Program-made: the position numbers and the translations under genes
Shown here: positions 14,087 to 31,446 of the stretch, in pieces
How the letters are laid out: each line of letters opens with the position of its first letter
How positions within the stretch are numbered: the first letter of the stretch is position 1
Notes under the pieces: model-generated
Told to the model about the DNA's origin: nothing
Seen by the model: only the letters and a program-made list of their open reading frames with translations
Databases searched by the model: none
DNA from: a gamma proteobacterium HTCC2207
Lineage (GTDB): Bacteria; Pseudomonadota; Gammaproteobacteria; Pseudomonadales; Porticoccaceae
Direction: 5' to 3'
Length of the DNA: 64,000 nt
NCBI GenBank assembly: GCA_000153445.1
Contig: CH672397.1
Coordinates: 62,001-126,000, forward strand

Positions 14087-14321
14087 TCCTCTCTATAATA
14101 TCTCCTCTAAAGAAGCTACTGAATTCCAAAGCCTTAAGTGAACGCCTGCTCTTTAAAGAAGTGTAGATCGCTGTTTACTTTTTTTGAACACATAAGCAAC
14201 TTGTCTGGCCTGCATGTTCAGCTTGGGAAGTGGCTAAAGTTCAAGTTTAAAAAAAGTTTTATGATGCGCTAAATAATTTTCTTATGACTCTAGTGGGTGC
14301 TCATCAAATTGCTTTGCCTGG

Positions 14322-14681: not shown

Positions 14682-14739
14682 AAATCACCTATTGGATATC
14701 GTTTTCACTTAACGTCAATACTTTGAATTGTAGGTAAGA

Positions 14740-17700
14740 TTATTCCTCTAGATTAAATAATTTGGTATTGCCCCCTCGAGCGACCAAATTTTCCGTGCGC
14801 GTGCGCTCGCTTAAAAACCACAGCAACCAATGGTAGCTGTAATCCTGGTCCCGCTGAGGCCATTCAATCAGCGGGATAATACTCCCAGAGCGTTTTGCCA
14901 TGGCCTGCCTTAGGCTTGAGCTATCAGCATTTAAACTATTGGCGACAATCGCCTCCACCTGATTATTCTGAATCAACTTCCCAAGACCTTCGAGAGCCGT
15001 AGGTTGTAGTAGCTGATTAGGCACACCGGCGTTGAGATAGTTATTTTGCAGACTTTTTAGTGCCTTTTGATGAACGATGTCGGCCGCCACAATCACTGGG
15101 CAGCCACAGAGTAGGGCGCTGGCAATTTGCTTCTCTGCATCGGCCAAAAAATCTTGCTGGGTAACAATAAGTATCACCACACCTCGGCCTTGGACCGATA
15201 GTCGATTGTCTTCGCCAGTGGGTCCCGGCAGCTCTATGGGGTTGGCCAGCTTTTCTCTAGCCACAGCATCAATCTGCTGCAGCCATGACTGATCTGTCAC
15301 CGCCTGTTGCAGAATAATCAGTCGCGAGTCGATTGAAGTGCATTGCCAGTTTTTCAGTGCCTTTTGGGCGCAGGATACTGAGGCTCCATGATCTGTTTCA
15401 GGTGTATTGATGGCCACGTCAAATGATCGGCCTGCAGTCTCAGGAATATCTGCACGAGAGAAGCGCAGCATATAGTTGGGACCACCGGCTTTTGGCCCTG
15501 TGCCGGATAGCCCGCGCCCACCAAAGGGATTGACCCCAACCACCGCGCCGACCATATTGCGGTTGATATACGTATTGCCGGCAATGGTGTTGCTAAAGAC
15601 CTTCTGGGCAAAGGCTTGGATGCGACTGTGAACGCCGAGGGTGAGGCCAAAACCGGTGTTATTGATCTGTTCAATCACATCCCCGAGCTTATCCGAATCA
15701 AAGCGCACCACGTGGAGTATGGGTCCAAAGACCTCTTCTGTAAGCAGGTCGAGGGAATCAATTTCAAAGGCGTGGGGTGCGACGAAGCTGCCGTTTTCAC
15801 AGTTGCTGCCCAGCTCAACCTTGGCGATAAATTCTGCCTCTCTGTGCATGCGATCTATGTGGGCCTGCAACTCTTTTTGCGCCCTAGAGTCGATCACTGG
15901 CCCCAGGTCGCTGCTTAAGAGGCGCGGGTCGCCGGCGTTCAGTGACGCCATGGCGCCTTTGAGTATATGCAGCACATCCTCAGCGATATCGGATTGGATA
16001 AATAACACACGGAGGGCCGAACAGCGCTGCCCAGCACTTTGGAAGGCCGACATAATCACGTCGTCCACCACTTGCTCGGGGAGGGCGCTGGAGTCGACCA
16101 CCATACAGTTTTGACCGCCGGTCTCTGCGATAAAGGGAATAGGTGCGCCGCGACGCAGAGCCAGTTGTTGATTGATATATTGAGCAGTGCCAGTAGAGCC
16201 GGTGAAAGAAATACCGGCAATGCGACGGTCGCCGAGCACTAGATTGCCAATCTGCGAGCCGCTTCCGAGCAGTAGCTGCAATGCTGCGCCGGGCACTCCG
16301 GCCCCATGAAACAAACGCACTGCATAGGCTGCAATCGCCGGTGTTTGAGCTGCGGGTTTAGCCAGTACCGTGTTGCCCGCAGCCAGAGCCGCGGCGATTT
16401 GGCCTACGGTAATGGCGAGGGGAAAGTTCCATGGGCTGACGCAGAAGAATACCCCGCGTCCAGTTAAGCCCTGTAACGATTTGGCTTGCACTGCATAGTA
16501 GCGGCAGAAGTCGATGGCCTCGCGCACTTCAGAGATGCCGTCATTAACTGTGCGGCCGCCCTCAAGGCTAATAACGCCAATGAGCCGACCAAAATCTCTC
16601 TCCATTAAGTCCGCGACTTTCTCGAGAATCGTTGCTCGTGCACCATGACCCACGCCATTCCAAGCTGGATAGGCTCGATTGGCAGACTCTAAGGCGTGGA
16701 GAATATCTTTATCATCGACTCGGGCGCTGTGGCCAATCAGCTGAGTTTGATCGCTTGGGCTGTAGCTGGGTATCAGTTCTCTTTCTAAAGCCACGCCGTC
16801 AACGATCGGTTGCGACAGCAGTTGCGGGGTTTTGGCAACCTCGGCTAAGAGCTGCTCGGCTTCCAGTATTGAATCCAGATCTATGCCAAGGGCATTTTTA
16901 CGATCTTCCCCTACAGCGCTAAACATCTCTGGCGGCACAGGAATACCTTTGTGCTGGTAGGGGAAGCAGCTATTGACCTGCTTGCGGTTATCATCGAGCA
17001 ATTCTGTCACTGGCGTCTGTTCATCGAGGAAGCGATTAACAAAGGAACTGTTGGCGCCATTTTCCAGTAGTCGTCGCACTAGGTAGGGAAGCAGATCACT
17101 ATGGTTGCCGATGGGGGCATAGACGCGCACTGAAACGGTTTTGGCCGCGGCCTTTCTCAGATTGTTATAGAGAATATGGCCCATGCCATGGAGACGCTGA
17201 AACTCAAAATTACGGTCCCCGGCAATATTGAGAATCATACTTGCGGTATAGGCATTGTGGGTGGCAAATTGCGGGTAAACAGCGTCCTGGGCATCGAGTA
17301 GTATACCGGCACAGTGCTGATAGCAGAGATCGGTATTGGCTTTGCGGGTGAACACCGGATAGCTGGTAAGGCCCAGTTCCTGAGCATGTTTTATCTCGGC
17401 ATCCCAGTAGGCACCTTTAACCAATCGCACCATCAAACGGCGATTAGTCTTACGGGCTAGGCCGATCAACCATTTGGCCGTATCCGGAGCGCGCTTCTGA
17501 TAGGCCTGCAGAACAAAGCCGAGTCCCTGCCAGCCATCGAGATCCTTGTCTTTGGCCAGAGCTTCAAAGATATCCATGGAGATGTCGAGTCTGTAGGCCT
17601 CCTCAGCATCTATGGACAGACCTAAATTGTATTTCGCAGCCTGGACACAGAGCTGCTTAATACGCGGCAGTAATTCGTCCATTACTCGTTTATGTTGCGC

Positions 17701-18459
17701 AAAATAGTAGCGCGGATGAAGCGCTGAGAGTTTTACCGAAATACCATTGGCGCTGTGCACATCAGAGTCATTGGCGCTCTGGCCAATACTGTCAATGGCA
17801 CTGGCATAGGCGGCCAAATAGTTACCGGCATCTTCATCGGTGCGGGCACCTTCGCCGAGCATATCAAAGGAAAATCTAGTTTCAGCATCGTTTTGTTTGG
17901 CGCCGCGTTTAAGACCTTCTTTAATGTTGCGACCCAGCACATACTGACCGCCCATTATTTTCATTGCCTGCATCACTGCGGCGCGAATAACCGGTTCCCC
18001 CGCACTGGCGGTGAGTCGCCTGACCCAGTTGTCAGTGTTTTCAGTGATCTCTGCATCGAGACTCACCAACTGGCCGGTCAGCATCAGGCCCCAGGTGGAG
18101 GCATTCACAAACAGGGACTTGGAATTATTGCGATGGCTATTCCAGTTGCCCGCCTTAATCTTCTCGGCGATTAGGCGATCCGCGGTTAACGCATCCGGCA
18201 CTCGCAGCAGTGCTTCGGCAAGGCACATCAGCGCGACGCCTTCGGCATTAGAAAGCCCAAATTCGAGTAAAAAAGCATCCAATATTCCGCTGCTGGATTT
18301 GTCTGCGCGACACTGAGTCACCAGCTCTCGAGATTCCTGCAAAATCCGCTCCCGAGTTGCTGCAGAGATTTGATTGCTGTGCAGTAATTGCGTGACGGCC
18401 TGATGCTCATCCTGATGCGTTGTCTGACGGATTTTATTGCGCAGTGCAGTCTGATTCAT
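14740..18459 (-). CDS. putA: Bifunctional proline dehydrogenase / P5C dehydrogenase
   Basis: A 1239-residue PutA that oxidises proline to glutamate. The proline dehydrogenase barrel includes RRLMVRLVKGAYWDAEIKHA and FATHNAYT. The aldehyde dehydrogenase half has VSPWNFPLAI, ETGGQNCMVV and the catalytic Cys in AGQRCSALR. A further 170 or so C-terminal residues form the extra domain found in long PutAs. The N terminus lacks the ribbon-helix-helix DNA-binding domain of E. coli PutA, so it should not repress its own gene; a divergent Lrp-type regulator fits that job. The fusion channels P5C between the two sites. Confidence 0.96.
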   Translation of the reverse strand: MNQTALRNKIRQTTHQDEHQAVTQLLHSNQISAATRERILQESRELVTQCRADKSSSGILDAFLLEFGLSNAEGVALMCLAEALLRVPDALTADRLIAEKIKAGNWNSHRNNSKSLFVNASTWGLMLTGQLVSLDAEITENTDNWVRRLTASAGEPVIRAAVMQAMKIMGGQYVLGRNIKEGLKRGAKQNDAETRFSFDMLGEGARTDEDAGNYLAAYASAIDSIGQSANDSDVHSANGISVKLSALHPRYYFAQHKRVMDELLPRIKQLCVQAAKYNLGLSIDAEEAYRLDISMDIFEALAKDKDLDGWQGLGFVLQAYQKRAPDTAKWLIGLARKTNRRLMVRLVKGAYWDAEIKHAQELGLTSYPVFTRKANTDLCYQHCAGILLDAQDAVYPQFATHNAYTASMILNIAGDRNFEFQRLHGMGHILYNNLRKAAAKTVSVRVYAPIGNHSDLLPYLVRRLLENGANSSFVNRFLDEQTPVTELLDDNRKQVNSCFPYQHKGIPVPPEMFSAVGEDRKNALGIDLDSILEAEQLLAEVAKTPQLLSQPIVDGVALERELIPSYSPSDQTQLIGHSARVDDKDILHALESANRAYPAWNGVGHGARATILEKVADLMERDFGRLIGVISLEGGRTVNDGISEVREAIDFCRYYAVQAKSLQGLTGRGVFFCVSPWNFPLAITVGQIAAALAAGNTVLAKPAAQTPAIAAYAVRLFHGAGVPGAALQLLLGSGSQIGNLVLGDRRIAGISFTGSTGTAQYINQQLALRRGAPIPFIAETGGQNCMVVDSSALPEQVVDDVIMSAFQSAGQRCSALRVLFIQSDIAEDVLHILKGAMASLNAGDPRLLSSDLGPVIDSRAQKELQAHIDRMHREAEFIAKVELGSNCENGSFVAPHAFEIDSLDLLTEEVFGPILHVVRFDSDKLGDVIEQINNTGFGLTLGVHSRIQAFAQKVFSNTIAGNTYINRNMVGAVVGVNPFGGRGLSGTGPKAGGPNYMLRFSRADIPETAGRSFDVAINTPETDHGASVSCAQKALKNWQCTSIDSRLIILQQAVTDQSWLQQIDAVAREKLANPIELPGPTGEDNRLSVQGRGVVILIVTQQDFLADAEKQIASALLCGCPVIVAADIVHQKALKSLQNNYLNAGVPNQLLQPTALEGLGKLIQNNQVEAIVANSLNADSSSLRQAMAKRSGSIIPLIEWPQRDQDYSYHWLLWFLSERTRTENLVARGGNTKLFNLEE

Positions 18460-18633
18460 CTGTGCCTACCTGATTATTACTCAATTTAAGATATGGCATT
18501 TTCAAATAAAAACTGCAGTATATGTCTCTATAATTCGGTTTAATCCAGTTTAATAATCTGCTAATTTAGTTTTTGTAGACTAATATGCTATTAACGATAT
18601 CTGGCTTATGGTGCCTTGAGTGGAGTGCTAAAA
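18460..18633. promoter_or_regulatory. Divergent control region between putA and the Lrp-type regulator
   Basis: A 174-bp AT-rich gap between two divergent genes. Lrp-family regulators usually bind such shared regions, with the cognate amino acid as effector. Several AT-rich half-site-like stretches are seen (TTTAATCCAG, TTTAATAATC), but I cannot fix a promoter or operator. Confidence 0.4.
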
Positions 18634-19110
18634 ATGAAAACAGTGACTGATCTGGATCGTACCGATCGACGAATTCTCACACTATTGCAGCGTCAGGGGC
18701 GCATCGCGAATGTGGATCTGGCAAAGCTGGTCAATCTGACGCCCACACCCTGCCTTGAACGGGTTAAGCGCTTGGAGAAAGAAGGTTTTATTACCCAGTA
18801 TGTTGCGTTGCTAGATCCAGTCAAAGCCAATGCTGCACTCTGTGCCTATATCGAGGTGCAGCTGTCGAGCACCACCACAGAGGCAATTGCGCTATTTAAT
18901 CAGCAGATACTCGACTTGGAAGAGGTGTCGGAATGTCAGATGGTGGCGGGGGGCTTCGATTATCTGATCAAGATTAGAGTGGCAGATATGCAGGACTATC
19001 AGCGTTTTTTGGGTGGCAAGCTATCTGCAATTAAAGGTATCAGCCAGACCCACACCTATGTGGTGATTGAGGATGTGAAGTCGGAAACGGCGATTAAGAT
19101 TAATCCCTAA
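18634..19110 (+). CDS. Lrp/AsnC-family regulator (probable putA activator)
   Basis: A 158-residue Lrp/AsnC protein. An N-terminal helix-turn-helix (LDRTDRRILTLLQRQGRIAN, then LTPTPCLERVKRLEKEGFI) is followed by a RAM effector domain with the MVAGGFDYLIKIRV block. The ATG at 18634 with GGAG upstream is preferred to an in-frame TTG at 18616. Divergent placement from putA resembles PutR/Lrp control of proline use in alphaproteobacteria and vibrios, where proline is the effector. It could instead be the global Lrp of this genome. Confidence 0.88.
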   Translation: MKTVTDLDRTDRRILTLLQRQGRIANVDLAKLVNLTPTPCLERVKRLEKEGFITQYVALLDPVKANAALCAYIEVQLSSTTTEAIALFNQQILDLEEVSECQMVAGGFDYLIKIRVADMQDYQRFLGGKLSAIKGISQTHTYVVIEDVKSETAIKINP

Positions 19111-19123
19111 TCCGGAGTTGGCG

Positions 19124-20200
19124 TTACAAATAGACCCGTGGAACCCGTTCTGGCATGCGGGTTAGCAGTTCATAGCCAATGGTGTCGCAGTAGCTAGCCA
19201 CTTCATTGACCGGTAACTCGGGGCCCCAAAGCACTGCTTTATCACCAATCGCAACCTCACTTAAGGCTGTGACATCCACAGTAATCATATCCATGGAAAC
19301 ACGTCCCACCAGCGGGCAGCGAATACCGTTTATCAGCACCGGCGTGCCATTAATAGCATTGCGTGGATAGCCATCGCCATAGCCAACGGTAATTGTGGCA
19401 ATGGTGGATTCGCGCTCAGCGGTCCAGTTGGCGGTGTAACCCACAGATTCCCCAGCGGCAATTGTGCGCAGAGAAATCACCGCCGATTCAAATGACATCA
19501 CCGGCTTCAGTTGATCGGCATTTTCTTGGGCCACTGCAAAGGGCGAGTTGCCATAGAGCATATAGCCCGGGCGCTGCCATTCACGCTGGGCTTTGGGCCA
19601 GGCCAAAATGGCGGCTGAATTGGCTAGGCTCTGCAATGCAGTGACCGGCGCACAGGCTTTAAAGGTCTGGATCTGCTTTAGGGTCGAGTCACTGTCCAAA
19701 TTATCGGCACAGGCAAAGTGCGAGGTAAACACGATCGGCTGACTAATATTGCGGCTGCTATTGAGGGTTTTATAGATATCGGCAATTTCTCCGGGCTGAA
19801 ACCCGAGGCGGTGCATGCCGGTGTCAACGCCGAGCCAGACGTTTAAAGGTAGTGCTAAATCGGCATTGAGAATCGCTTCTTTTTGCTGATGATTTTCGAC
19901 CATCACCCAAAAGCCTTTGGTGGCGGCTAATTTCAGTTCAGTGGCTTCAAAGGTGCCTTCTAGTAGCAGTATTGGTTGTTTGATACCGGTGTCTCGTAAT
20001 TCCAGCGCTTCTTCAATGCAGGCGACGCCAAAGGCAGGTGCAATATCGCTAAGCGCCTGAGATACCTTTATCGCACCATGGCCATAGGCATTGGCTTTGA
20101 CCATGGGAATGGTTTTTGATTTTGGTGCCAGAGATTGCGCCAACTCATAGTTGTGGCGCAGTGCCTGCAGATCAATAACCGCTTTGGTGGGTCTGGACAT
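19124..20200 (-). CDS. alr: Alanine racemase
   Basis: A 358-residue PLP enzyme that interconverts L- and D-alanine. The PLP lysine is in MVKANAYGHG near residues 33-42; the catalytic tyrosine region reads SVGYTANW, and GYGDGYPR follows. Length is standard. It is the last gene of a minus-strand run with D-amino acid aminotransferase 34 bp upstream, which points to a catabolic (DadX-like) rather than only a wall-building role. The gene converges with the Lrp-type gene, 13 bp apart. Confidence 0.94.
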   Translation of the reverse strand: MSRPTKAVIDLQALRHNYELAQSLAPKSKTIPMVKANAYGHGAIKVSQALSDIAPAFGVACIEEALELRDTGIKQPILLLEGTFEATELKLAATKGFWVMVENHQQKEAILNADLALPLNVWLGVDTGMHRLGFQPGEIADIYKTLNSSRNISQPIVFTSHFACADNLDSDSTLKQIQTFKACAPVTALQSLANSAAILAWPKAQREWQRPGYMLYGNSPFAVAQENADQLKPVMSFESAVISLRTIAAGESVGYTANWTAERESTIATITVGYGDGYPRNAINGTPVLINGIRCPLVGRVSMDMITVDVTALSEVAIGDKAVLWGPELPVNEVASYCDTIGYELLTRMPERVPRVYL

Positions 20201-20234
20201 GGCGCTACCTGTTTTTCAAATAGAATAGCAAAAT

Positions 20235-21092
20235 CTAGTAATCAAATTTCGCGGCGGAGTAGAGGGTCTGAGCCGCCAGCCAGATATCGCCAATGTTGCC
20301 ATCGCCGACCGGCTTGCCGTCGATCTCAGTGATCGGTGCTATTTCTTTCGAGGAACTGGTAATCCACACTTCATCGGCATTGGCCACTTCGTCCATGGTA
20401 ACCGTGCGCTCTTCCACGCTTATCTGGCCATCGTTGCGCAGCACATCTATAACAATTTGGCGGGTGATACCCGGGAGTTTTTGATTATCTAAAAGGGGCG
20501 TAATCACGCTGCCGTCTTTAACAATAAAGACATTGCAGGCACTGGCTTCGGTTAGCTGATTGTCGGCATTAAATAACAGTGTTTCATCACTGCCCTGTTC
20601 GTAGCCATGCTGAAAGTGCAGTACATTGCCCAGCAGCGCCGTGGATTTAATCTGGCAGCGTTCCCAGCGCAGGTCGCGACTGGTGGAGACTTTTTTGGCT
20701 TTAACTTTGCTCTTGTCGGCTATGGGTGGTGGAGCGATCTCAAAGGTGTAAGCAAAAATTGTTGGCGCAATATTCTTAGGAAAAGCATGAAAACGTTTAT
20801 TGTCTGTACCGCGAGTCACATGGAGGTAGAGCCCCAAATTGCCTGCGCCATTCTCGACGATCAAGCGATTGCACAGTTGTGCCCAGTCTTCAGCTGACCA
20901 GTCGAGCTGGATACCGATCGCTTCGAGGCCACTTTTCATGCGCGCAATATGGGGTGCAAAACCGACCATTTTCCCAGCGTAAGAGGGCACCACTTCATAG
21001 ATGCCGTCACCGAACAAAAATCCGCGATCCATCGGGGAAATTTTGGCCTGTTCTATTGGCATATATTGGCCATCTAGAAACGCAATGCTCAT
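20235..21092 (-). CDS. dat: D-amino acid aminotransferase (fold IV)
   Basis: A 285-residue class IV aminotransferase. Early blocks are FLDGQYMPIEQAKISPMDRG and FLFGDGIYEVV. The PLP lysine is in RCQIKSTALLGNVL, and LTEASACNVFIVKDG follows. These match D-amino acid transaminase (D-Ala + 2-oxoglutarate to pyruvate + D-Glu) more than IlvE. Context supports this: alanine racemase is 34 bp downstream and D-glutamate cyclase-like and 5-oxoprolinase genes lie upstream. Branched-chain or aminodeoxychorismate-lyase-like activity is the alternative. Confidence 0.85.
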   Translation of the reverse strand: MSIAFLDGQYMPIEQAKISPMDRGFLFGDGIYEVVPSYAGKMVGFAPHIARMKSGLEAIGIQLDWSAEDWAQLCNRLIVENGAGNLGLYLHVTRGTDNKRFHAFPKNIAPTIFAYTFEIAPPPIADKSKVKAKKVSTSRDLRWERCQIKSTALLGNVLHFQHGYEQGSDETLLFNADNQLTEASACNVFIVKDGSVITPLLDNQKLPGITRQIVIDVLRNDGQISVEERTVTMDEVANADEVWITSSSKEIAPITEIDGKPVGDGNIGDIWLAAQTLYSAAKFDY

Positions 21093-21289
21093 ATTGATAC
21101 CTTGTTGGGCTGTGGCAAACTTTTACTTTGATTTATTTTTTGGCTGTTTTTTTGATTAGGCCGGTACTTAAAAAATGGTATCAGCGGGGTGGATTTCACG
21201 CAAAGTAAATTCATTGTTATCACCGCTTTATTCTCGACTAATCAGGTGTTTTATAGGGCTGATACGGTGAATGTCGAGAAAAAACCCTG

Positions 21290-22162
21290 CTACTGGCAAA
21301 ATCCACCTAATTTTCTCAGGTCCTCAATCAATTTTTCGCTAATATCCGAGCTTAAGCCATCCTCAGTTAGGCTGTTTTCTCTGGTTACGCCATCGACACT
21401 GCCGCGGGCTGAGAGATATTGCAGCGTGGCCAAATTATCCCAGCCGAGCAGCATATCTCGCTGCCTTAGCGCAGATAGCATGGCGATCAATCCATGAGCT
21501 GCCCAGTTGGATACATCGGCAATAAGCAGTTCATCACAGCGCGTCGCCGAGGGAATAATATCCAGTTGCTCGATTGTGCTAGCTATATTACCCATGCCAA
21601 TTTCATTGCCGCCATCGCCAATGGCAATAGTCGGGCAGCTGGCTGTACTTAAAAAATAATCGAAGCTGGCACAGGCGGGGCTGATATTTTCACCGCGCAT
21701 ATTGTAATACTGGCCATCCGCGGCCATGCCTGGGCGCTCAATGGAAATAACCAGAGAGGGCTGGTAGTGCTGCAGCGTTTTTGCTGCCTCGAGCTTGCTG
21801 ACGGCGGGTTCGCCTACACTGATTTTGTGTACTCGAAAGTCACTGGCGATGGCGTCCGCCAGCGGTGCGCCGCAGATCAGTACCGGTTCCGCACCCAGCG
21901 TTTCCAGCGCGCTGTAGAGAGCGATAGCCCCAACTGGACCATCGGTTTCATAGGTGCCGGCTACCGGAAAGCCGGTGCCGATTAAGACAGTGCCCCTAGC
22001 CCTTAGCAGCAACTGTGCGGCGCGCAGATAGTAGCCTGGCAGCAGAGCTTGCTGCAGTGTTTGCATGCCTCGGGGATTGCGTGCCACCAAGAGGTTTTCG
22101 ATCTCGATGCTGAGATTAAGAAGTGGATTATCCACCTTCCTCACCTTTTTCATCTTTTTCAT
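21290..22162 (-). CDS. DUF4392 protein, D-glutamate cyclase C-terminal-type
   Basis: A 290-residue protein of the DUF4392 family, the domain that forms the C-terminal part of mammalian D-glutamate cyclase (DGLUCY). Recognisable parts are LIGTGFPVAGTYETDGPVGA near residues 61-80, ISIERPGMAADGQYYNMRG, and AIGDGGNEIGMGN, the most typical block. It overlaps pxpC by 35 bp (an alternative ATG three codons in shortens this), so it is translationally coupled to the 5-oxoprolinase. D-glutamate cyclase turns D-glutamate into 5-oxo-D-proline; for a bacterial stand-alone DUF4392 protein that activity is inferred. Confidence 0.8.
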   Translation of the reverse strand: MKKMKKVRKVDNPLLNLSIEIENLLVARNPRGMQTLQQALLPGYYLRAAQLLLRARGTVLIGTGFPVAGTYETDGPVGAIALYSALETLGAEPVLICGAPLADAIASDFRVHKISVGEPAVSKLEAAKTLQHYQPSLVISIERPGMAADGQYYNMRGENISPACASFDYFLSTASCPTIAIGDGGNEIGMGNIASTIEQLDIIPSATRCDELLIADVSNWAAHGLIAMLSALRQRDMLLGWDNLATLQYLSARGSVDGVTRENSLTEDGLSSDISEKLIEDLRKLGGFCQ

Positions 22163-23126
22163 CGTCGTCGAAATCTGTCGTTAGAGTCTCTAACACAGCG
22201 TCATTAAAACGCTGTTGACTGAGTAGCAGTGCATTGTGCGCTTGTTCAATGCTGATAGCCTCAAAGCGAACAGAGCCTCCGGGTAAAAGCTGTGCGAGTT
22301 TGCCAAGATCCAGCGACAACACCGAGCCAAGCTTGGGGTAACCGCCAATGGTTTGGCGGTCATTGAGCAGAATAATGGGCTGACCATCTGCCGGGACCTG
22401 AATAGCGCCGAGGCAAATACCCTCTGAGAGAATCCCGTCCAGCGTCGATTGAATTGCTGGACCCTTAAGCCTAAAGCCCATTCGGTCACTGCTCTCGGTA
22501 ACGCGATATTCAGAGCTGAAAAAGCGCTGTTGACTAACTGTGCTAAAAGCCTGCTGCTGATAGCCCAGTATCACTCTCAGTAGCGCGCTGTTATCAGCGT
22601 AATCTGGACGTTGATTCTCGGGGACACGCAGCTGTTGCCTCGCCGGGTTTACCGAGCAGGGCAATAGATCGCCGGCCTGCAGCGCTGTGCCATCGCAATG
22701 CAGCCCACCGAGCGCTTCCCGCGTCACTGTGGCGGCACTATTGAAAATCGGTTTAATGGTAAATCCACCGGCAACGGCTAAGTAGCTGCGACTGCCGGAT
22801 AGGGCAAATCCCAATTCGATTCGATCGCCGACTTTTAGCGGATGACTCTGCCACAGTTCTCGGGTCTGACGGTTGATGCTAAATGGAACAGTGGCACCTG
22901 TTATGGCTATGGTGGTATCCACAGTCGCCTCTAAAATCAGCCCGCCAACAGTGATCTCTATGGCCGCCGCTGAAAGCGGATTACCACAGAGTCGGTTAGC
23001 CCATTGAAAGGCCTGGGGGTCCATGGGGCCGCCGCTAGTGAGTCCGATGCCGTGGTGGCCAAAGCGACCGGCATCTTCGATCAAGCTAAAGATGCCTGGC
23101 TGAAGAACCTTTAAGCCACTGCTCAC
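22128..23126 (-). CDS. pxpC: 5-oxoprolinase subunit C (biotin-dependent-carboxylase-like)
   Basis: A 332-residue PxpC/KipA protein, one of three subunits of the prokaryotic ATP-dependent 5-oxoprolinase that opens 5-oxoproline to glutamate. Family blocks are GIFSLIEDAGRFGHHGIGLT, GGPMDPQAFQWANRL and near the end LNDRQTIGGYPKLGSV. It starts with GTG overlapping the pxpB stop (GTGA). The acidic tail DFDDDEKDEKGEEGG lies in the overlap with the next gene. Confidence 0.93.
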   Translation of the reverse strand: MSSGLKVLQPGIFSLIEDAGRFGHHGIGLTSGGPMDPQAFQWANRLCGNPLSAAAIEITVGGLILEATVDTTIAITGATVPFSINRQTRELWQSHPLKVGDRIELGFALSGSRSYLAVAGGFTIKPIFNSAATVTREALGGLHCDGTALQAGDLLPCSVNPARQQLRVPENQRPDYADNSALLRVILGYQQQAFSTVSQQRFFSSEYRVTESSDRMGFRLKGPAIQSTLDGILSEGICLGAIQVPADGQPIILLNDRQTIGGYPKLGSVLSLDLGKLAQLLPGGSVRFEAISIEQAHNALLLSQQRFNDAVLETLTTDFDDDEKDEKGEEGG

Positions 23127-23815
23127 AATAGGCCACCCATATCCAGGTAGGTCTCTCTGTCGATCGCCTTAAAGCGGACTCGATCACCCACCTGAACCGG
23201 CGTGCTCGGCTCGAGGCTAGGATCAAACATCAGCTGCGGGCAGAGGCCAATAAGATTCCAACCACCGGGAGATTCAGCTGGATAAACGGCGGTCTGACGA
23301 TCGGCAATCGCCACTGCGCCGCGGGGGACTTTTTGCCTTGGAGTGGCGAGTCGCGGCGCGGCTATCCGCGGGTCAAGCTCGCCGAGATAGGCAAAGCCTG
23401 GGGCAAAACCAATGGCATAGACTCTGTACTCGGATTGTTGGTGGATAGTGATAACGTCTTCAATGGTGAGGCCAGCATTGTCGGCTAGCGATTGTAGGTC
23501 GGGTCCCGATTCGATGCTGTAGTAAACCGGCAGTGTTACCAGACTAGCTGATTGGTTGCTATCGGGATCAATTGGCGTGTTCAGTGCCTTGCGAATTGCT
23601 TTGCGCACGGCATGATGGTCGGTTTTAAAGGGGTCATAGATCACTAGCAGAGACGCGTAGGAGGGCACCAGATCAACCAATGTGTCGTCGAGGATAATGC
23701 GCAACTGTGACGCGGTTGCGGCTATCTCGGCTGCAATTGCTTCACTGGGTGTGTCGCCAAAATAAACGATTAGCGCGTTCTCTCCGGCAATGGAGATTGT
23801 CCGCTGAGGCGCCAT
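23123..23815 (-). CDS. pxpB: 5-oxoprolinase subunit B
   Basis: A 230-residue PxpB/KipI protein, partner of PxpC. It has VDLVPSYASLLVIYDP, then YRVYAIGFAPGFAYLGELD and the C-terminal ESPGGWNLIGLCPQLMFDP, all standard. The ATG overlaps the pxpA stop as TAATG; an in-frame TTG two codons earlier is less likely. The order pxpA-pxpB-pxpC is complete and tightly coupled. Confidence 0.93.
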   Translation of the reverse strand: MAPQRTISIAGENALIVYFGDTPSEAIAAEIAATASQLRIILDDTLVDLVPSYASLLVIYDPFKTDHHAVRKAIRKALNTPIDPDSNQSASLVTLPVYYSIESGPDLQSLADNAGLTIEDVITIHQQSEYRVYAIGFAPGFAYLGELDPRIAAPRLATPRQKVPRGAVAIADRQTAVYPAESPGGWNLIGLCPQLMFDPSLEPSTPVQVGDRVRFKAIDRETYLDMGGLL

Positions 23816-24549
23816 TAGCAATTGATTAACTGTCGAATTTCTTGGATGGCTTGCACGCCTTCCATATTATCGCCGTGGACACAGAGAGAGTCGGCTTGCA
23901 ATTCAAGGCGATGGCCACTAACCGTAGTGACGCAGCCTTCGGTTTTAAGTTGCTCTACCTGCGCGAGCATTTTTTCACGGCTGTGAACTGCACCCTCTTT
24001 GGCCCGTGAGAGCAGGGCGCCATTATCGTCGTAACAGCGGTCGGCGAAGGCTTCAAAAATAACCTCTATGCCAAACATCTTGGCCTCTTCGCGATGAATT
24101 TCGGCATCAGGTGTCGCCTGCAACATAAAGGCAAGGGGCAGGTGTGATTCGGCAATGGCTTCCATTACGGCGCTGCGAATATGGCCATTGGCCATCATAT
24201 CGTTGTAGAGCGCACCATGAGGTTTGACGTAGGTGACTGGCACACCCAGGTCTGTTGCCATACCAGTGAGTGCGGCAATCTGGTATTGAACTATGGCGAT
24301 GATTTCGATGGCCGGTAGTTTCATTGAACGACGACCAAAGCCGGCAAGATCGGGATAACTGGGGTGCGCGCCGACAATCACATTATTGCGCTTGGCGGAG
24401 AGCAGCGTTTTTTTCATAACCACCGGATCGCCGGCGTGGAAGCCGCAGGCGATATTGGCTTGATCTATGAAGGGCATAACCTGGTCGTCGAGGCCCATGG
24501 TCCACGCGCCGAAGCTTTCACCGAGATCGCAATTTAATAGTAGTGGCAT
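23815..24549 (-). CDS. pxpA: 5-oxoprolinase subunit A (LamB/YcsF family)
   Basis: A 244-residue PxpA protein. It starts LLNCDLGESFGAWTMG, then has QANIACGFHAGDP, VGAHPSYPDLAGFGRR and TYVKPHGALYNDM, all hallmark blocks. The frame is open 43 codons further upstream, but that extension (with CHPERAQRTEGSS) is a translated dispersed repeat, so I start at the ATG with AGGAAA 7 nt upstream. With PxpB and PxpC it hydrolyses 5-oxoproline at the cost of ATP. Confidence 0.94.
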   Translation of the reverse strand: MPLLLNCDLGESFGAWTMGLDDQVMPFIDQANIACGFHAGDPVVMKKTLLSAKRNNVIVGAHPSYPDLAGFGRRSMKLPAIEIIAIVQYQIAALTGMATDLGVPVTYVKPHGALYNDMMANGHIRSAVMEAIAESHLPLAFMLQATPDAEIHREEAKMFGIEVIFEAFADRCYDDNGALLSRAKEGAVHSREKMLAQVEQLKTEGCVTTVSGHRLELQADSLCVHGDNMEGVQAIQEIRQLINC

Positions 24550-24610
24550 AGTGTTTTCCTGGATGCTGCTAGTTTTTTGTTTGTGTGCTTCGGACTCTGC
24601 CATTCTGCAA

Positions 24611-24706
24611 GAGGATCCTTCGGTTCGCTGTGCTCTCTCAGGATGACAGGGTGGAGTGTCATCCTGAGCGCCTAACATGTCATCCTGAGCGTAGCCGAAG
24701 GATCTC
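24611..24706. repeat. Inverted pair of dispersed repeats upstream of pxpA
   Basis: A left-facing and a right-facing copy of the dispersed element sit head to head. One starts near 24611 (GGATCCTTCGGTT ... CTCAGGATGACAG), the other ends near 24706 (TCATCCTGAGCG ... CCGAAGGATCTC), with a short extra partial copy between. In the transcript between the DUF1445 gene and pxpA they can fold into a long stem. Confidence 0.8.
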
Positions 24707-24739
24707 CCTTCTCTGGCTGCAATCCCATCGGATCACCGA

Positions 24740-25552
24740 TTATTCAACCGTTACCGCAAGCTCACTATTCTTCAAATCAGTCACCAGCATACAGCCTGGA
24801 CTATGGGTTATACAAAAAGGCAACTTAGCCGCCTCCAAGGCAACCTGAGGTGTCACACCACAGGCCCAAAATAGTGGTAATTCGCCTTGTTTAATCGTCA
24901 CCGCATCACCAAAATCCGGGCGATTAATGTCAGCAATCCCTATATGCTCCGGATTAGCATAATGTATCGGCTCACCGTGCACCGAGGGAAAGCGCTGACA
25001 AATTTCTGCAGCGCGCAGCGCCTCCTCTGGTACAAAAGGTCTCATGCTGACAACCATCTTTCCCGCAAAGGGGCCAGCAGGGGTGCAGTCTATATTGGTT
25101 CTGTACATGGGCACATTGACCGCTTCACTGATATTGCGTACCTCAAGTCCATCAGCAATTAACGCCTCCTCAAATGAAAAGGAGCAGCCGAGCAAAAAAG
25201 CCACCAAATCATCCCGCCACAGGGAGGATATATCCTTGACTTCACTGACCACCTGGCCGTGTTCAAAAACCTTATAGCTTGGTATGTCAGTGCGAATATC
25301 AATATCTTCCCCCAGTGTTGGCAGCCTAAAGTTACCGGGTTCAGATGTTGCAATCAGCGGGCAGGGTTTCGGGTTAGTTTTGCAAAACTGTAGAAAATCC
25401 GCTGCGGAATCAGCGGGCAGAATCACTAGATTGCACTGCACATAGCCGTGGCAAAATCCTGAGGTATTACCCTTGTGCTGGCCGCTGCGTATTTGCTGGC
25501 GCAGCTGTTGTGGTGAGACTGTCTGTTCAGTGCTGGTGATGGACTTTGACAT
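24740..25552 (-). CDS. DUF1445/YcsI putative hydro-lyase, D-glutamate cyclase-type
   Basis: A 270-residue DUF1445 protein. Family marks are [30 protein letters not shown], the cysteine-bearing [18 protein letters not shown], and near the end [15 protein letters not shown]. This domain is also found in mammalian D-glutamate cyclase, where it is fused to DUF4392. Here it is separate, the first gene upstream of pxpABC on the same strand. ATG at 25552 with GGAG 7 nt upstream is preferred to a TTG four codons earlier. Its exact activity in bacteria is not proven; cyclisation of D-glutamate is the contextual inference. Confidence 0.85.
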
Positions 25553-25625
25553 AAGCAACTCCAACTGTTGTCTGGTGAGTTTAACAAAGCTACAGCGTTA
25601 ACTCATTAACCCTAGCAGGGTAAAT

Positions 25626-26261
25626 TTAGCGCCAGTGTTTGGTCCAGCTATCGAGCACCAACTCTGAATACCAGTACTGTTCATAGCTGCCATTGTAGCG
25701 GGCTAGTGCGTCAGCCAGCCGGCCCTTTTCCCTGTCTAAATAGTATTTAAGAATAGTGCAGCCGTAGCGCAGGTTAGTTTGGATATTGATCAAATTGTCC
25801 TCCGGGCGTCCGATTTCATGCTTCCAAAAGGGCATTATCTGCATCATGCCCTGGGCACCGGCGGAGGAGACCGCATAGCGATCGAAGTGACTTTCCACTT
25901 CAATTAGCGCGAGAACAATTTCCGGAGAAAGCCCCGCCCGCGAGGCTTCGCTGTGAATAAGTTTGAGTAAGGATATGCGCTGGACTGGATCTTTGACTAA
26001 ACGAGCGAGCACTGGATCCTTTTCTACAAGCCATACTTCGGCATCATATTGATCGCCAAAACTATTGGCTTCGGCAGCGGCTTGCTTGAGCAGAGCCAAG
26101 AGTGCCGGATCGGCAGCGGGTTTTTCTTCACTCGAGACAGTGACCGAAATAGAGAGCAGAAGCAGGACCACAGCAATCCACTGTGGCCATAGCAACAGGT
26201 TACTTGGCCGCGGGTTACTTAGCCGCGAGTTACTTGGCGATGTTCTCGGCAATAAAATCAT
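25626..26261 (-). CDS. Lytic transglycosylase, SLT domain
   Basis: A 211-residue protein with an N-terminal membrane segment ([15 protein letters not shown], about residues 28-42) and a C-terminal SLT domain. The catalytic Glu is in [10 protein letters not shown], followed by [15 protein letters not shown] and ending with [15 protein letters not shown]. Such enzymes cut peptidoglycan glycan strands with release of 1,6-anhydromuropeptides in the periplasm. It overlaps the end of proS by 32 bp and precedes the D-amino-acid genes on the same strand. Confidence 0.9.
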
Positions 26262-27954
26262 CCAGCTTATCCATAGCTATATGTTGATTTTCGTGTTCCC
26301 GGCGATTGCGGTATTCAACATTGCCATCGGCTAAACCGCGATCGCCAATAACGATTCGATGGGGAATGCCGATCAGCTCGATATCCGCCAACATGCCACC
26401 GAGGCGAGCTTTGGGCTCGTCCATAAACAGTACTTCATAACCGGCACTAACAAGCTTGCTATAAAGTGTCTGGCAGGTTTCGGCGACCCGTTCAGACTTA
26501 TGCATATTGATTGGCACAATGGCGACTTGAAACGGTGCAATCGACTCCGGCCAGATAATGCCATTATCATCGTGATTCTGCTCAATGGCTGCGGCAACAA
26601 TACGACTGACACCTATACCATAGCAGCCCATAGACATGGCGCGGTCTTTGCCATTTTCGTCGAGTACAGTGGCTTTCATAGCTTCGCTGTATTTGGTGCC
26701 GAGCTGGAAGATATGACCCACTTCAATACCGCGCTTAATTTCTAATACGCCACGACCATCAGGGCTCGGATCGCCAGCCACTACATTGCGAATATCGGCA
26801 ATTGTGAATTCGCCGCAGTCGCGCTGCCAGTTAACGCCGGTCAGATGATAGCCGTCGCGATTGGCACCGCAGACAAAGTCGCTGAGCTGCGCGGCCCAGT
26901 GATCCACAACGATTGGCAGATTGAGATTCACTGGACCAATGGATCCCGGTGAGCAGTTCAAAGTGCTTTTAATCTGATCTTCAGTGGCGAAAGTCACTTC
27001 AGTTTGCAAGCCGAGGGCCCGCTGAGCCTTTACTTCATTGAGTTCATGATCGCCGCGGATCATCAAGCCATAGAGCTGAGTTTTGCCTTCTTCGTCTTCG
27101 GCGCTGACAATTAGCGCTTTAAGCGTTTGCTCAGCGCTGGTGTCGATAAAGTCGCAGAGCTGTTTAATCGTGTGCACGCCGGGGGTGGCCAATTCGGCCA
27201 TGGTTTCTGTGGCGGGTAGGGCAGCTTCACTGGGTGCCAGTGCATCGGCCTTCTCTATATTTGCGGCGTAATCACTCTCGCTGGAAAATACGATGGCATC
27301 TTCCCCAGAATCGGCCAGTACATGAAATTCATGGGAAACACTGCCGCCGATGCTGCCAGTGTCGGCCAGCACAGCGCGATAGACCAAGCCGGTGCGATCG
27401 AAAATCGCCGAGTAGGTTTGATACATCAGGTCGTATGTCTCTTGCAGAGAGGCGCTGTCCACATGAAATGAGTAGGCGTCTTTCATGCAAAACTCTCGAG
27501 TTCGCATCACCCCAAAGCGCGGGCGTCGCTCATCGCGGAACTTAGTTTGAATTTGATAGAAGTTGGCGGGCAGCTGTTTGTAGCTGCGAATTTCATTGCG
27601 AATAATATCGGTGACCACCTCTTCATGGGTTGGGCCGAGGCAAAATTCGCGACCATGACGGTCCTTGATACGCAGTAACTCAGGACCAAATTGGCCCCAG
27701 CGTCCAGATTCGGTCCACAGGTCGGCGGGCTGCACAACCGGCATCATAATTTCCAAGGCACCGGATCTGTCCATCTCTTGACGGACAATAGCTTCGACCT
27801 TGCGAAATACACGGAGGCCCAGGGGTAGCCAAGAGTAAAGCCCAGAGGCAACTTTGCGGATCATACCAGCGCGCAGCATTAGTTGATGGCTGATGACTTC
27901 GGCATCGGCGGGAGATTCTTTTTTTGTTGAAATCAGGTATTGGCTGGCGCGCAT
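26230..27954 (-). CDS. proS: Prolyl-tRNA synthetase (bacterial type)
   Basis: A 574-residue class II ProRS. Motif 2 is in [21 protein letters not shown]; the editing insertion (YbaK-like) occupies about residues 225-400; motif 3 is in [15 protein letters not shown]; an anticodon-binding domain ends the protein. It attaches proline to tRNA-Pro. The start is the ATG before [14 protein letters not shown]. It is the upstream gene of the minus-strand run that includes the transglycosylase. Confidence 0.97.
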
Positions 27955-28057
27955 GGTTTCTCTTACACTGCTGGTCGGTTGATTTGAGGCGCCATTTTAC
28001 GGCTCTGAGCTGTCGCCGTACAGAGAGTAAACACAGATAAGCAGAGATGAGGACAAA

Positions 28058-28486
28058 ATGTTTCAATTAGATCCCCGATTAGAAGCGGACACCCAATTGT
28101 TGGGCGCCTTTCCATTGAGCTTATTACTGCTCAGTAAAGACGCCAATTACCCTTGGTGTATTTTGGTACCTCGGCGTGAAAATCGACGCGAAATTTATCA
28201 GCTGGACCAAGCTGACCAACAGCAGCTGTTGCATGAATCCTGCCTACTTGCCGAGACCTTGTCTGATCTTTTCGGGGCCGACAAAATCAATGTCGCGACC
28301 CTAGGCAATATGGTTCCGCAGCTGCATATGCACCATATAGTGAGATTTGAGGCCGATGTGGCCTGGCCTGGGCCAGTCTGGGGAGCAGTGGTCGCAGCGA
28401 CCTATCCGCAGCAACTGTTAACTGAAACAGCTGAGCGTATTGTCGCTGCGCTTGCACCGTTGGGCCTGCACGTTGAGCAGGCTTGA
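28058..28486 (+). CDS. HIT-family hydrolase
   Basis: A 142-residue histidine-triad protein. The triad region reads PQLHMHHIVRF, that is Q-x-H-x-H, with the first His replaced by Gln as in a common proteobacterial subgroup; WPGPVWG follows. Members hydrolyse nucleoside phosphoramidates or dinucleotides. Divergent from proS, it converges with the HU-like gene, 19 bp away. Substrate unknown. Confidence 0.88.
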   Translation: MFQLDPRLEADTQLLGAFPLSLLLLSKDANYPWCILVPRRENRREIYQLDQADQQQLLHESCLLAETLSDLFGADKINVATLGNMVPQLHMHHIVRFEADVAWPGPVWGAVVAATYPQQLLTETAERIVAALAPLGLHVEQA

Positions 28487-28505
28487 TTGGAGTTAGATGC
28501 GGAGG

Positions 28506-29039
28506 CTACTGCGCCATATCTTTTAGGCCTTTTAAGGCATGCACTTTAACGGCCACGGAAGCAGGGCGTGCTTTAAATGTCGTTTCTTTGCCGGTGAAGG
28601 GATTAGTGCCTGTATAAGCTTTTTTAGCCGGACGCTTAACCGTATGAATTTTAATCAGGCCGGCGAGAACGAATTCACCCACGGAGCGTTTTTTAACATG
28701 GCGTTCCACCAGAGTTGCCAGCTCAGTAAGCAGTGTATTCACCTGCTTGCGCGTCAAATCTGAATTAGCGGCCAGCTCACTGATGATTTGAGTCTTGCTA
28801 AAGCGCTCTCTGACAGCAGTGACTTTTTTACTCGGGGCTGTCTTGGCGACAGGTGCTTTCTTGACGGGCGCTTTCTTCACCCGAGCTTTCTTTGCCGCCA
28901 CTTTACTAGAGACCTTTTTGACTGCCGCTTTTTTTATGCTGGTGCTTTGTTTAGCGGCGGACAGCGTTTTTTTCTTTAGCGGCGTCCTACCCTTTTTTGC
29001 AGTTGAGGTTGCTTGCGCAGATCCTTTCTTAAAAGCCAT
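28506..29039 (-). CDS. HU-family DNA-binding protein with Lys/Ala-rich tail
   Basis: A 177-residue protein in two parts. Residues 1 to about 80 are Lys/Ala/Ser-rich with KKAPVKKAPV-type repeats, like a histone H1 tail. The second part is an HU-like domain: SKTQIISELAANSDLTRKQV at its start and TGTNPFTGKETTFKARPA in place of the HU DNA-binding arm. It should bind DNA as a nucleoid protein. The ATG at 29039 with AAGGA upstream is preferred to an adjacent GTG. Confidence 0.88.
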   Translation of the reverse strand: MAFKKGSAQATSTAKKGRTPLKKKTLSAAKQSTSIKKAAVKKVSSKVAAKKARVKKAPVKKAPVAKTAPSKKVTAVRERFSKTQIISELAANSDLTRKQVNTLLTELATLVERHVKKRSVGEFVLAGLIKIHTVKRPAKKAYTGTNPFTGKETTFKARPASVAVKVHALKGLKDMAQ

Positions 29040-29341
29040 CACATTTTCCTTTATAAATGTAAATCATATTTCATCCCTGCTGTATTGCGATTGAGGGCCA
29101 ACAGGGCCTCGCAATCATTTATAGCCGCTGTTTTCCTGATATGCCAAAAATGGCAATGTTTTTCGTCATTTTTTTAATCTGCAGTGGGCTCAGCCCATGC
29201 GCGGGCATTCTACAAGTGCTGGTGCTGGGGTATAATGCGGCGCTTTTTCGCCGCGGCAGCCAACAAATATTAGGATATTGACTGTCTGCGACTATTGGAC
29301 AAGTGTATTTTTACTCTCTTAGTCAGTTAGGAAACAACGTT

Positions 29342-29590
29342 ATGCCCATATATGACTATCGCTGCGCGGCTTGTGACCACGAGCTTGAAGCGATACAAAG
29401 AATGAGTGATGACAAGCTGGTGGATTGCCCAGCCTGTGAAAAGCCCGAATTAAAAAAACAGCTTTCCGCAGCAGGCTTTCGCCTCAGTGGAAGTGGATGG
29501 TATGAGACCGACTTTAAAACCGGCAGCAAAAAGAATCTTAGCGACAGTGGTAGTTCGAAGGCAGCTACCACGGACGCCAGCAGCTCTTAA
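29342..29590 (+). CDS. FmdB-type zinc ribbon protein
   Basis: An 82-residue protein starting PIYDYRCAACDHELE, with a second CPACEKPELKK pair giving a CxxC-CxxC zinc ribbon, then a Ser/Lys-rich tail. Members of this FmdB-like family are small putative regulators or RNA-associated proteins, commonly next to aspS in gammaproteobacteria, as here. AGGAAA precedes the ATG; an upstream extension to 29303 lacks similarity. Confidence 0.9.
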   Translation: MPIYDYRCAACDHELEAIQRMSDDKLVDCPACEKPELKKQLSAAGFRLSGSGWYETDFKTGSKKNLSDSGSSKAATTDASSS

Positions 29591-29670
29591 ATAAGCGCTA
29601 GTTTTACGCGCTAATTAAAGAACTCATTTAAATTTAACCAAATCAAAATTAGAATAGGGATAGACAACAG

Positions 29671-31446
29671 ATGTATCGATCTAACTATTGTGGATTATTC
29701 ACCAGTGAGCATATTGATCAAGAAGTGACCCTCTGCGGCTGGGTAGACCGTCGCCGTGATCACGGTGGTGTGATCTTTGTTGATCTGCGCGATCGCGAAG
29801 GCATTGTTCAGGTGGTATTTGATCCCGATGCGGGTGAGTTCTTTGAGCAGGCTGACAGTGTGCGCTCGGAATATGTACTCAAGGTTACTGGTGTAGTTCG
29901 CGCTCGCAGCGCTGCGACAGTGAACCCGAATATGGCGACCGGTGAGATCGAAGTCTATGGCACTGCTCTAGAAATCCTCAATAGCGCCGTTACACCGCCA
30001 TTTCAGTTAGATGACTATGTCACCGTGGGTGAAGATGTCAGACTTAAATATCGCTATATGGATTTGCGTCGCAAGGAAATGCAGAACAGCCTGCGCTTCC
30101 GCTCCAAGATCAGCTCATCGATCCGCAATTATCTGGTCGACGACGGCTTTTTAGATATAGAGACGCCGATCATGACCAGAGCCACCCCTGAGGGTGCGCG
30201 AGATTATTTGATTCCCTCGCGAACGCATCCCGGGCAATTTTTCGCCATGCCACAATCGCCGCAGCTTTTTAAGCAGTTGCTGATGGTTGCCGGCTTTGAT
30301 CGCTACTATCAAATTGCCAAGTGTTTCCGCGATGAAGATCTGCGCGCCGATCGTCAGCCAGAATTCACTCAGATTGATATAGAGGCCTCTTTTGTCGATG
30401 AAGAGGACATTATGTCGACCACTGAAACCATGATTCGCGGCGTCTTCTCTGAGCATATGGGCGTTGATTTCGAGACCTTCCCGCGTATGACCTATGCCGA
30501 TGCCATGCATAAATACGGTTCTGATAAGCCTGATTTACGTATTCCTTTAGAGCTAGTTGAGGTCAAAGATCTGCTTAAAGACATCGAGTTTAAGGTCTTT
30601 GCCGGTCCAGCCAATGATCCAGCCTGTCGCGTTACCGCACTTAAAGTGCCAGGTGGCGCTGACATTTCTCGCAAGAAAATCGACGAGTACACCAAGTTTG
30701 TCAGCATCTACGGTGCCAAAGGTTTGGCCTGGATTAAGGTCAATGCCATTGAGACTGGCATCGAAGGGCTGCAGTCACCGATCATTAAATTCCTCGGCGA
30801 TGAAGTAACCATGAATATTATGCAGCGCTTGGACGCCAAGAATGGCGATATCGTCTTCTTTGGTGCCGACAAGTCTCAGGTAGTCTCTGAAGCCCTGGGT
30901 GCGCTGCGCTGTAAAGTAGGTGCCGATCTGGATCTTTATACCTGTGTCTGGGCACCTATGTGGGTGATTGATTTCCCAATGTTTGAAACCACTGATTCCG
31001 GTGCGCTAACGCCGTTGCACCACCCGTTTACCGCGCCCTCGTGCAGCGAAGAAGAACTTAAAGCCAATCCGGGAGCGGCTCTGTCTCGGGCATACGACAT
31101 GGTGCTCAATGGTTGTGAGTTGGGCGGTGGATCGATTCGTATTCATGATCAGAATATGCAGCAGACAGTATTTGAAGTGCTGGGTATAAACGCAGAAGAA
31201 CAGCGTGAAAAGTTCGGCTTCCTGCTCGATGCCCTTAAGCATGGTGCGCCACCGCATGGCGGCTTGGCCTTCGGTCTAGATCGCCTAATTATGTTGATGA
31301 CCGGTGCCGATTCTATCCGCGATGTTATTGCCTTCCCGAAAACACAGTCGGCTGCCTGTCTGCTGACTGATGCACCGGGTGTGGTGGATAATAGCCAACT
31401 GCGGGATCTCAGTATTAAGCTGCGTACTAAAGAGCCCGCTGCGTAA
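29671..31446 (+). CDS. aspS: Aspartyl-tRNA synthetase
   Basis: A 591-residue bacterial AspRS. The anticodon-binding OB domain comes first ([20 protein letters not shown]), then class II motif 2 ([16 protein letters not shown]), the GAD insertion, and motif 3 ([14 protein letters not shown]). It charges tRNA-Asp. FmdB upstream and the ruv-tol block downstream reproduce the Pseudomonas-type order, except that yebC is not between aspS and ruvC here. Confidence 0.97.

Follow-up and report, generated by a model that had tools for sequence, protein, structure and literature searches.

The bacterium HTCC2207 (genome of 2.63 Mb, 98.58% complete) carries, within the 64-kb stretch of contig CH672397.1 analysed here (the window), a minus-strand run of seven genes at positions 19124–25552. 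In the order of transcription these are DUF1445, pxpA, pxpB, pxpC, DUF4392, dat and alr. On balance, we favour the view that the run is an internal D-glutamate (D-Glu) balance unit rather than an uptake pathway: alr and dat would supply the cell wall, and the remaining genes would return surplus D-Glu to glutamate. An earlier note on this DNA had described the run as a catabolic set for D-Glu, 5-oxoproline and D-alanine (D-Ala). The run itself proved to be real and correctly placed, and in a Pfam profile search each of its seven genes matches its own family above the curated cut-off. All seven frames are open, which rules out a reading as fragments or pseudogenes.

Two members of the run correspond to the two halves of the mammalian D-glutamate cyclase DGLUCY. 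The DUF1445 protein (24740–25552), equivalent to the N-terminal half, scores 216.6 bits with PF07286 (cut-off 25) and 410 bits with NF003969 (cut-off 324), and it matches two solved UPF0317 proteins. The counterpart of the C-terminal half is the DUF4392 or GLUCM-like_C protein (21290–22162; PF14336, 241.2 bits, cut-off 27.9), a proposed D-glutamate cyclase. It aligns with TON_0340 of Thermococcus across residues 51–283. Glu59 and Asp157 of TON_0340, either of which abolished activity when changed (PMC5132392; papers cited by PMC number are used in the portions available to us), correspond to E72 and D183 of the window protein and are invariant in all 19 alignment rows. The mouse protein, which carries both domains, converts D-Glu into 5-oxo-D-proline (PMC5339696). 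In the window the two domains lie on separate chains with three genes between them; the locus is therefore DGLUCY-like in its parts, without encoding a DGLUCY protein.

The three genes in between are the adjacent 5-oxoprolinase subunit genes pxpA (23815–24549; PF03746), pxpB (23123–23821; PF02682) and pxpC (22128–23126; PF02626). All three exceed the Pfam cut-offs, and those of TIGR00370 and NF003816 are also passed; PxpC passes the broad family TIGR00724 as well (261.9 versus 230.2 bits). The longest pxpA frame opens at 24678, but the conserved protein begins at the ATG at 24549. PxpA, like DUF4392, DUF1445 and Dat, has relatives of solved structure. Downstream of DUF4392 lies dat (20235–21092; PF01063), which encodes a class IV aminotransferase of the D-amino-acid type, the proposed source of D-Glu. 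Its best solved relatives, 4pbc, 4m0j and 3daa, are D-amino acid aminotransferases (177–186 bits), and the best branched-chain enzyme reaches 125 bits. The run ends with the alanine racemase gene alr (19124–20200; PF01168 and PF00842; TIGR00492, 360.3 bits, cut-off 168). Overlapping starts and stops, mentioned in the earlier note, measure 7 nt (pxpA/pxpB), 4 nt (pxpB/pxpC) and 35 nt (pxpC/DUF4392); the gaps are 190 nt (DUF1445–pxpA), 197 nt (DUF4392–dat) and 34 nt (dat–alr).

The gene order is widely conserved. Among 293 genomes of the same order, PF14336 matches were found in 41; one weak case (19.6 bits) was left out, and stretches of 9–20 kb around the 40 clear matches were compared. The order DUF1445-pxpA-pxpB-pxpC-DUF4392-dat is kept in 32 of the 40 loci, in 29 of which alr comes next, so that the proposed linkage of both cyclase halves with PxpABC and Dat is indeed a conserved feature. 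Downstream of DUF4392, dat is found in 38 of the 40 loci, often only a few tens of nucleotides away, and dat of the window type (at least 52% identity) occurs in 38 of the 40 genomes. Likewise, 38 of the 40 genomes possess DUF1445, and in the remaining two (G082 and G242) DUF4392 sits at a contig end. These same two loci, cut by contig ends, are among the eight exceptions to the order. The others lack DUF1445 nearby (G134), pxpBC nearby (G003 and G047), pxpABC nearby (G138) or both pxpA and dat (G229), or hold DUF4392 alone (G103). Five genomes in which pxpC is not beside DUF4392 were checked: it lies elsewhere in G003, G047, G103 and G138, and a genome search in G242 found none. Since the order recurs in many families with differing flanking genes, a chance neighbourhood can be ruled out.

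A second set of named loci comprised the best 80 of 553 by DUF4392 alignment, selected by likeness to the window protein; several of their genomes overlap with the order sample, and some loci are merely 3–7 kb long. Among these best 80, a same-strand dat lies downstream in 70, sometimes with other genes between, and the full six genes are present in 56, with an Lrp-like gene interposed in five. They include Rheinheimera, Arsukibacterium, Marinobacterium, Amphritea and Oceanospirillum as well as Thiothrix, the last without dat, and the near relatives of the window's DUF4392 protein among them are SAR92 or Porticoccaceae records. The earlier note had proposed a survey of how often these genes occur together; its outcome is strongly positive. 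Across the phylum DUF4392 is rare, being found in 10 of 398 genomes, HTCC2207 included. One of the ten (G505) has all six genes and another (G406) five, without a pxpA match; two have DUF1445 and DUF4392 only, one is G591, in which a giant frame near DUF1445 holds two DUF4392 domains, and in the remaining four the DUF4392 is a distant one, no other genes of the run being found close to it.

A role in cell-wall supply is suggested by the racemase MurI, which was not found in the HTCC2207 genome: the best TIGR00067 match has an E value of 0.25 (10.7 bits), and the wider racemase family PF01177 yields only a piece below the cut-off (22.9 versus 31 bits). MurI was also not found in any of four sampled congeners; in the order, 230 of the 293 genomes have it at E ≤ 0.001. 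Taking E < 1e-20 as strong, a limit chosen after the values had been seen, 217 genomes have a strong match, 13 a weak one and 63 none. Strong MurI is missing in 30 of the 40 DUF4392 genomes versus 46 of the 253 others (Fisher p 2e-12), and in 34 of the 42 genomes with window-type Dat versus 42 of 251 others (p 4e-16), both tests ignoring kinship. No such tie is seen for a looser Dat group of 39–48% identity (33 genomes, 22 with strong MurI and 11 not; p 0.30). Window-type Dat occurs in 23 genera; no Dat-bearing sampled genome has strong MurI in 17 of these, all have it in three, and three are mixed. Within the family of HTCC2207, genus g3 (two genomes) has MurI and no Dat match, g1 (five genomes) and g4 (one) have Dat without MurI, and g2 combines both in three genomes and has Dat alone in the small genome G041.

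The need for D-Glu is indicated by MurD. The genome encodes a single strong MurD (411 bits) with lysine at the position of E. coli K319; it does not qualify as a MurD2. Lys319 of the E. coli enzyme reportedly contributes to discrimination between the two forms of Glu, D and L (PMC8788868). Because the one strong MurD keeps the lysine of the D-Glu type, the wall most likely needs free D-Glu. The alr gene of the run is the sole TIGR00492 match in the genome, and an established alternative to MurI is provided by D-amino acid aminotransferases (PMC8788868, PMC5885031). As no MurI was found, Alr is single and MurD is of the D-Glu type, alr and dat most likely provide the D-Ala and D-Glu for the cell wall. 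In two genomes of the same family in which MurI was not found, this pair stands alone: in G135 the genes after proS are dat and alr, the interval being free of DUF1445, pxp and DUF4392 genes, and G041 has dat-alr alone likewise. Neither genome gave a PxpC, DUF4392 or DUF1445 match anywhere; dat-alr is therefore kept where the cyclase/PxpABC module is absent. Together with the single Alr, the failure to find MurI and the D-Glu-type MurD, these two genomes speak against the catabolic role that the earlier note had given to dat and alr. The proposed chemistry from D-Glu through 5-oxoproline to glutamate remains the best reading; the D-Ala catabolic direction is not supported.

In the pathway we propose, Alr would convert L-Ala into D-Ala. 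Dat would then use D-Ala as amino donor to 2-oxoglutarate, and because MurI is missing, this reaction would furnish the D-Glu that peptidoglycan requires. D-Glu in excess, whether it comes from Dat or from wall turnover, would be cyclised to 5-oxoproline by the DUF4392 protein, with the DUF1445 protein acting alongside or after it, and PxpABC would open 5-oxoproline to glutamate at the expense of ATP. The unit would thus provide the return path from D-Glu to glutamate that a reversible MurI offers other bacteria. Each reaction, the direction of flux and the step from D to L are what we infer from genes and their arrangement.

Several points weigh against this proposal. Dat is reversible and could by itself drain D-Glu. 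It also scores below the NCBIfam cut-offs (TIGR01121, 228.9 versus 277.45 bits; NF005209, 236.5 versus 320), and PxpC misses the equivalog NF045499 (215.2 bits, cut-off 500), for which reason the names Dat and PxpC are likely rather than certified identities. Strong MurI is present in 10 of the 40 DUF4392 genomes, and four genomes that have window-type Dat lack both strong MurI and DUF4392; loss of MurI therefore does not demand the module, nor is the module confined to genomes without MurI. In 31 genomes of the order strong MurI and a Dat match at 1e-60 are both missing, so there must be other routes to D-Glu in the order. TON_0340, a member of the DUF4392 family, has been reported as a Mn phosphatase with weak Mn-dependent activity (PMC5132392). 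Finally, the stereochemical weak point raised in the earlier note is real: the product of the mouse cyclase is 5-oxo-D-proline (PMC5339696) and PxpABC is known on the L form. In the portions of the open-licence literature available to us, PMC13274462 included, no report of PxpABC acting on the D form was found.

One way across this gap, which we put forward as a tentative and somewhat doubtful idea, is that the unit stands in for MurI working in reverse, as an ATP-driven one-way path from D-Glu to L-Glu. DUF4392 alone would then be the cyclase, and DUF1445, outside the cyclase reaction, would act on 5-oxoproline, either turning over its D form or inverting it to make it accessible to PxpABC. 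Such an arrangement would explain why DUF1445 lies near pxp genes at loci without DUF4392 (25 of 31, see below), and why window-type dat and DUF1445 each occur in 38 of the 40 DUF4392 genomes. If DUF4392 alone is the cyclase, roles would be assigned to both halves of the human enzyme. Against this idea, the mouse protein includes DUF1445 and was reported to yield the D form (PMC5339696).

The same proteins could also be arranged to run towards D-Glu: 5-oxoproline from L-Glu would be turned into its D form, from which PxpABC would produce D-Glu by ring opening and so supply the wall a second time. ATP-driven hydrolysis by PxpABC is one-way and the association with missing MurI would fit, but Dat and Alr would already be sufficient, and G041 and G135 have Dat but neither MurI nor PxpC. 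Since the mammalian cyclase, moreover, runs from D-Glu to 5-oxo-D-proline (PMC5339696), we regard this scheme as very improbable.

The preference for an internal balance unit over an uptake pathway comes from a comparison with a second kind of DUF1445 locus. In the order sample 31 genomes have DUF1445 without DUF4392, and stretches of 6.5–16 kb around these genes were examined. Near DUF1445, pxp genes occur in 25 of the 31 loci, and all 31 genomes possess strong MurI. A gene for DctM of the tripartite ATP-independent periplasmic (TRAP) transporters is found in 20 of the loci and an Nramp gene in seven; the two sets are disjoint and together cover 27 of the 31. Neither type was found at any of the 40 DUF4392 loci of the order or at any of the 80 named loci (best 80 of 553), a result that holds for the locus stretches and for these two transporter types. 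The queries were taken from three DUF1445-only loci and named by Pfam, so that remoter DctM or Nramp relatives or transporters of other types could escape them.

The proteins of the two kinds of locus mostly fall into clades apart. In the best-parting split of each tree, the members from DUF4392 loci versus those from DUF1445-only loci on the same side are 34/35 versus 0/31 for DUF1445 (support 0.80), 35/35 versus 2/25 for PxpA (support 0.996), 32/34 versus 0/23 for PxpB (support 0.88) and 32/34 versus 0/21 for PxpC, this last split being without a support value. Counting residues that discriminate the two kinds, with the rows of two loci (L067 and L071) dropped from the DUF4392 side, gave none in DUF1445 at the thresholds used, two in PxpA (R125 and H152), two in PxpC and three in PxpB; we could connect none of these with an active site. 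The plain reading is that the DUF1445-only kind imports 5-oxoproline or one of its precursors and that the DUF4392 kind would be fed internally by D-Glu.

This comparison bears directly on a catabolic route, in which the cell would use external D-Ala and D-Glu, for example from the peptidoglycan of dead cells. All the reactions needed exist among known families, marine bacteria have been described as using D-amino acids (PMC12363236), and LysR-type genes are linked at some loci. Nevertheless, we consider such a route quite unlikely, given the 27 of 31 DUF1445-only loci with TRAP or Nramp genes versus none of the 40 and 80 DUF4392 loci, a count confined to the loci and to these types, with one locus (L116) holding a TctA transporter gene. 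The run also contains the only Alr match of a genome in which no MurI was found, and dat-alr is retained without the module in G041 and G135.

The internal balance unit need not be a single transcription unit. A promoter-like element on the minus strand at 21175–21203 (TTGCGT, 17 nt, TACCAT, with the TG of an extended -10) ends 83 nt ahead of the dat start. An element of this kind is shared by all 15 aligned loci from the window's genus and SAR92-type relatives and reads as an extended -10 promoter. A strict form of the pattern fits nine of the 15 loci, compared with 0.002 on average when sequences were resampled at first order, the pattern having been composed after the alignment was seen and the loci being related. 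In the 64-kb window it occurs once, at 21203. Thus, dat-alr probably has its own conserved promoter in the window's group. A general scan of 18400–28100 for consensus promoters returned eight sites versus 10.2 in shuffled sequences, the pre-dat element not among them, and a terminator scan of the same region eight versus 9.9. Elsewhere in the order, seven of the 40 loci have a DUF4392–dat spacing of about 1–1.3 kb (counted from the locus rows), and in six of these the spacer holds a LysR-type frame, named by eye; Pfam-named LysR matches occur in seven of the 40 DUF4392 loci. The separate promoter and the long spacers are caveats on calling the genes one run.

They also leave some room for a general repair function, which we judge rather unlikely. 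PxpABC would clear 5-oxo-L-proline formed spontaneously from Glu or Gln, DUF1445 and DUF4392 would do another small-molecule job, such as that of a Mn phosphatase, and dat-alr would be wall genes that merely lie downstream. This would suit the probable promoter of dat-alr in the window's group and the seven widely spaced loci, six of them with a LysR-type frame, as well as the 25 of 31 loci at which DUF1445 lies near pxp genes even without DUF4392. It would also agree with the known action of PxpABC on 5-oxo-L-proline (PMC13274462) and the weak Mn-dependent phosphatase activity of TON_0340 (PMC5132392). Against it, 38 of 40 genomes from many families with changing flanks have dat downstream of DUF4392, DUF4392 is associated with missing MurI, and the mouse protein that unites both domains acts as a D-Glu cyclase (PMC5339696).

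Some further features of the locus and its relatives were noted. The run is preceded by proS, named by eye, and by a small gene with a transglycosylase domain; behind it come an Lrp-type regulator on the opposite strand and putA, also named by eye. An Rfam search of 14000–30000 returned no RNA element at the gathering score. The DUF1445–pxpA gap contains three exact copies of a repeat resembling repetitive extragenic palindromes, TGTCATCCTGAG, at 24637–24689. With up to two mismatches this repeat has 18 matches in the window, versus 4.4 expected, located here and in 15 other places, and among near relatives the length of the gap ranges from 2 to 667 nt. Two loci, L062 (G047) and L064 (G003), have pxpA and no pxpBC beside DUF4392-dat-alr, with pxpC on another contig. 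In G010 and G052 (L192 8144–8725; L194) pxpABC is followed, after a gap of about 640–680 nt, by dat-alr without DUF4392; a phosphoribosyltransferase-family gene lies in the gap in G010. G591 (L214 4680–15401) has an open frame of 3573 aa with two DUF4392 domains and a DUF4781 piece, with DUF1445 and a LysR-like frame just upstream. Ten of the frames listed beside or inside unusual clusters were scanned and revealed no common partner; the TctA transporter gene of L116 came to light here. On contig 2 of HTCC2207 (L197 6993–10690) a HyuB gene (PF02538, the 5-oxoprolinase/hydantoinase family) and a HyuA-like neighbour lie near apparent CoA-transferase and lyase genes, named by eye; this HyuB may be a second 5-oxoprolinase.

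Nearly every bacterial wall needs D-Glu, and bacteria without MurI need other ways to make and to remove it. A unit of Dat, Alr, the two halves of the vertebrate cyclase and PxpABC would be a concrete and testable answer for many marine gammaproteobacteria. Its separate bacterial genes make it possible to study the contributions of the two halves of the human enzyme one by one, and to learn whether PxpABC accepts 5-oxo-D-proline. PxpABC operons, the two-domain mammalian cyclase and Dat as a source of D-Glu are already known. In the portions available to us of the open-licence literature on D-glutamate cyclase and 5-oxoprolinase we found no description of the conserved unit or of its tie to missing MurI.

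Compared with known systems, the run shares DUF1445 and DUF4392 with mammalian DGLUCY (9030617O03Rik/C14orf159). In the mouse this is one mitochondrial protein, whereas the window encodes two proteins with pxpABC between them and dat-alr behind. Six split bacterial homologues of the human cyclase have been counted in gut bacteria, no such operon being mentioned in the available portion of that source (PMC11580864). The pxpABC genes are shared with the ycs operon of Bacillus subtilis and with pxpTABC of Corynebacterium glutamicum, where pxpT is a transporter gene; E. coli also has a PxpABC operon. In a control search PF07286 found matches in B. subtilis, where ycsI is, by its name, presumably the DUF1445 gene. 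The ycs operon includes the Nramp gene ycsG (PMC10448178). B. subtilis thus has an Nramp gene and no DUF4392 match in the control search, whereas the window has DUF4392, dat and alr and no linked TRAP or Nramp gene. The uptake-type loci of the same order likewise share pxp genes near DUF1445 (25/31) with the window, but differ from it in having no DUF4392, in their strong MurI (31/31) and in DUF1445 and PxpABC proteins mostly of other clades. The DgcN/DgcA system of D-glutamate catabolism in marine bacteria converts D-Glu to L-Glu through other enzymes. The name dgcN is used for marine bacteria in the available part of PMC12363236. The Dat route to D-Glu, finally, appears as a single enzyme in the available text of PMC8788868 and PMC5885031, whereas in the window Dat stands in a conserved unit together with a proposed module for the removal of D-Glu.

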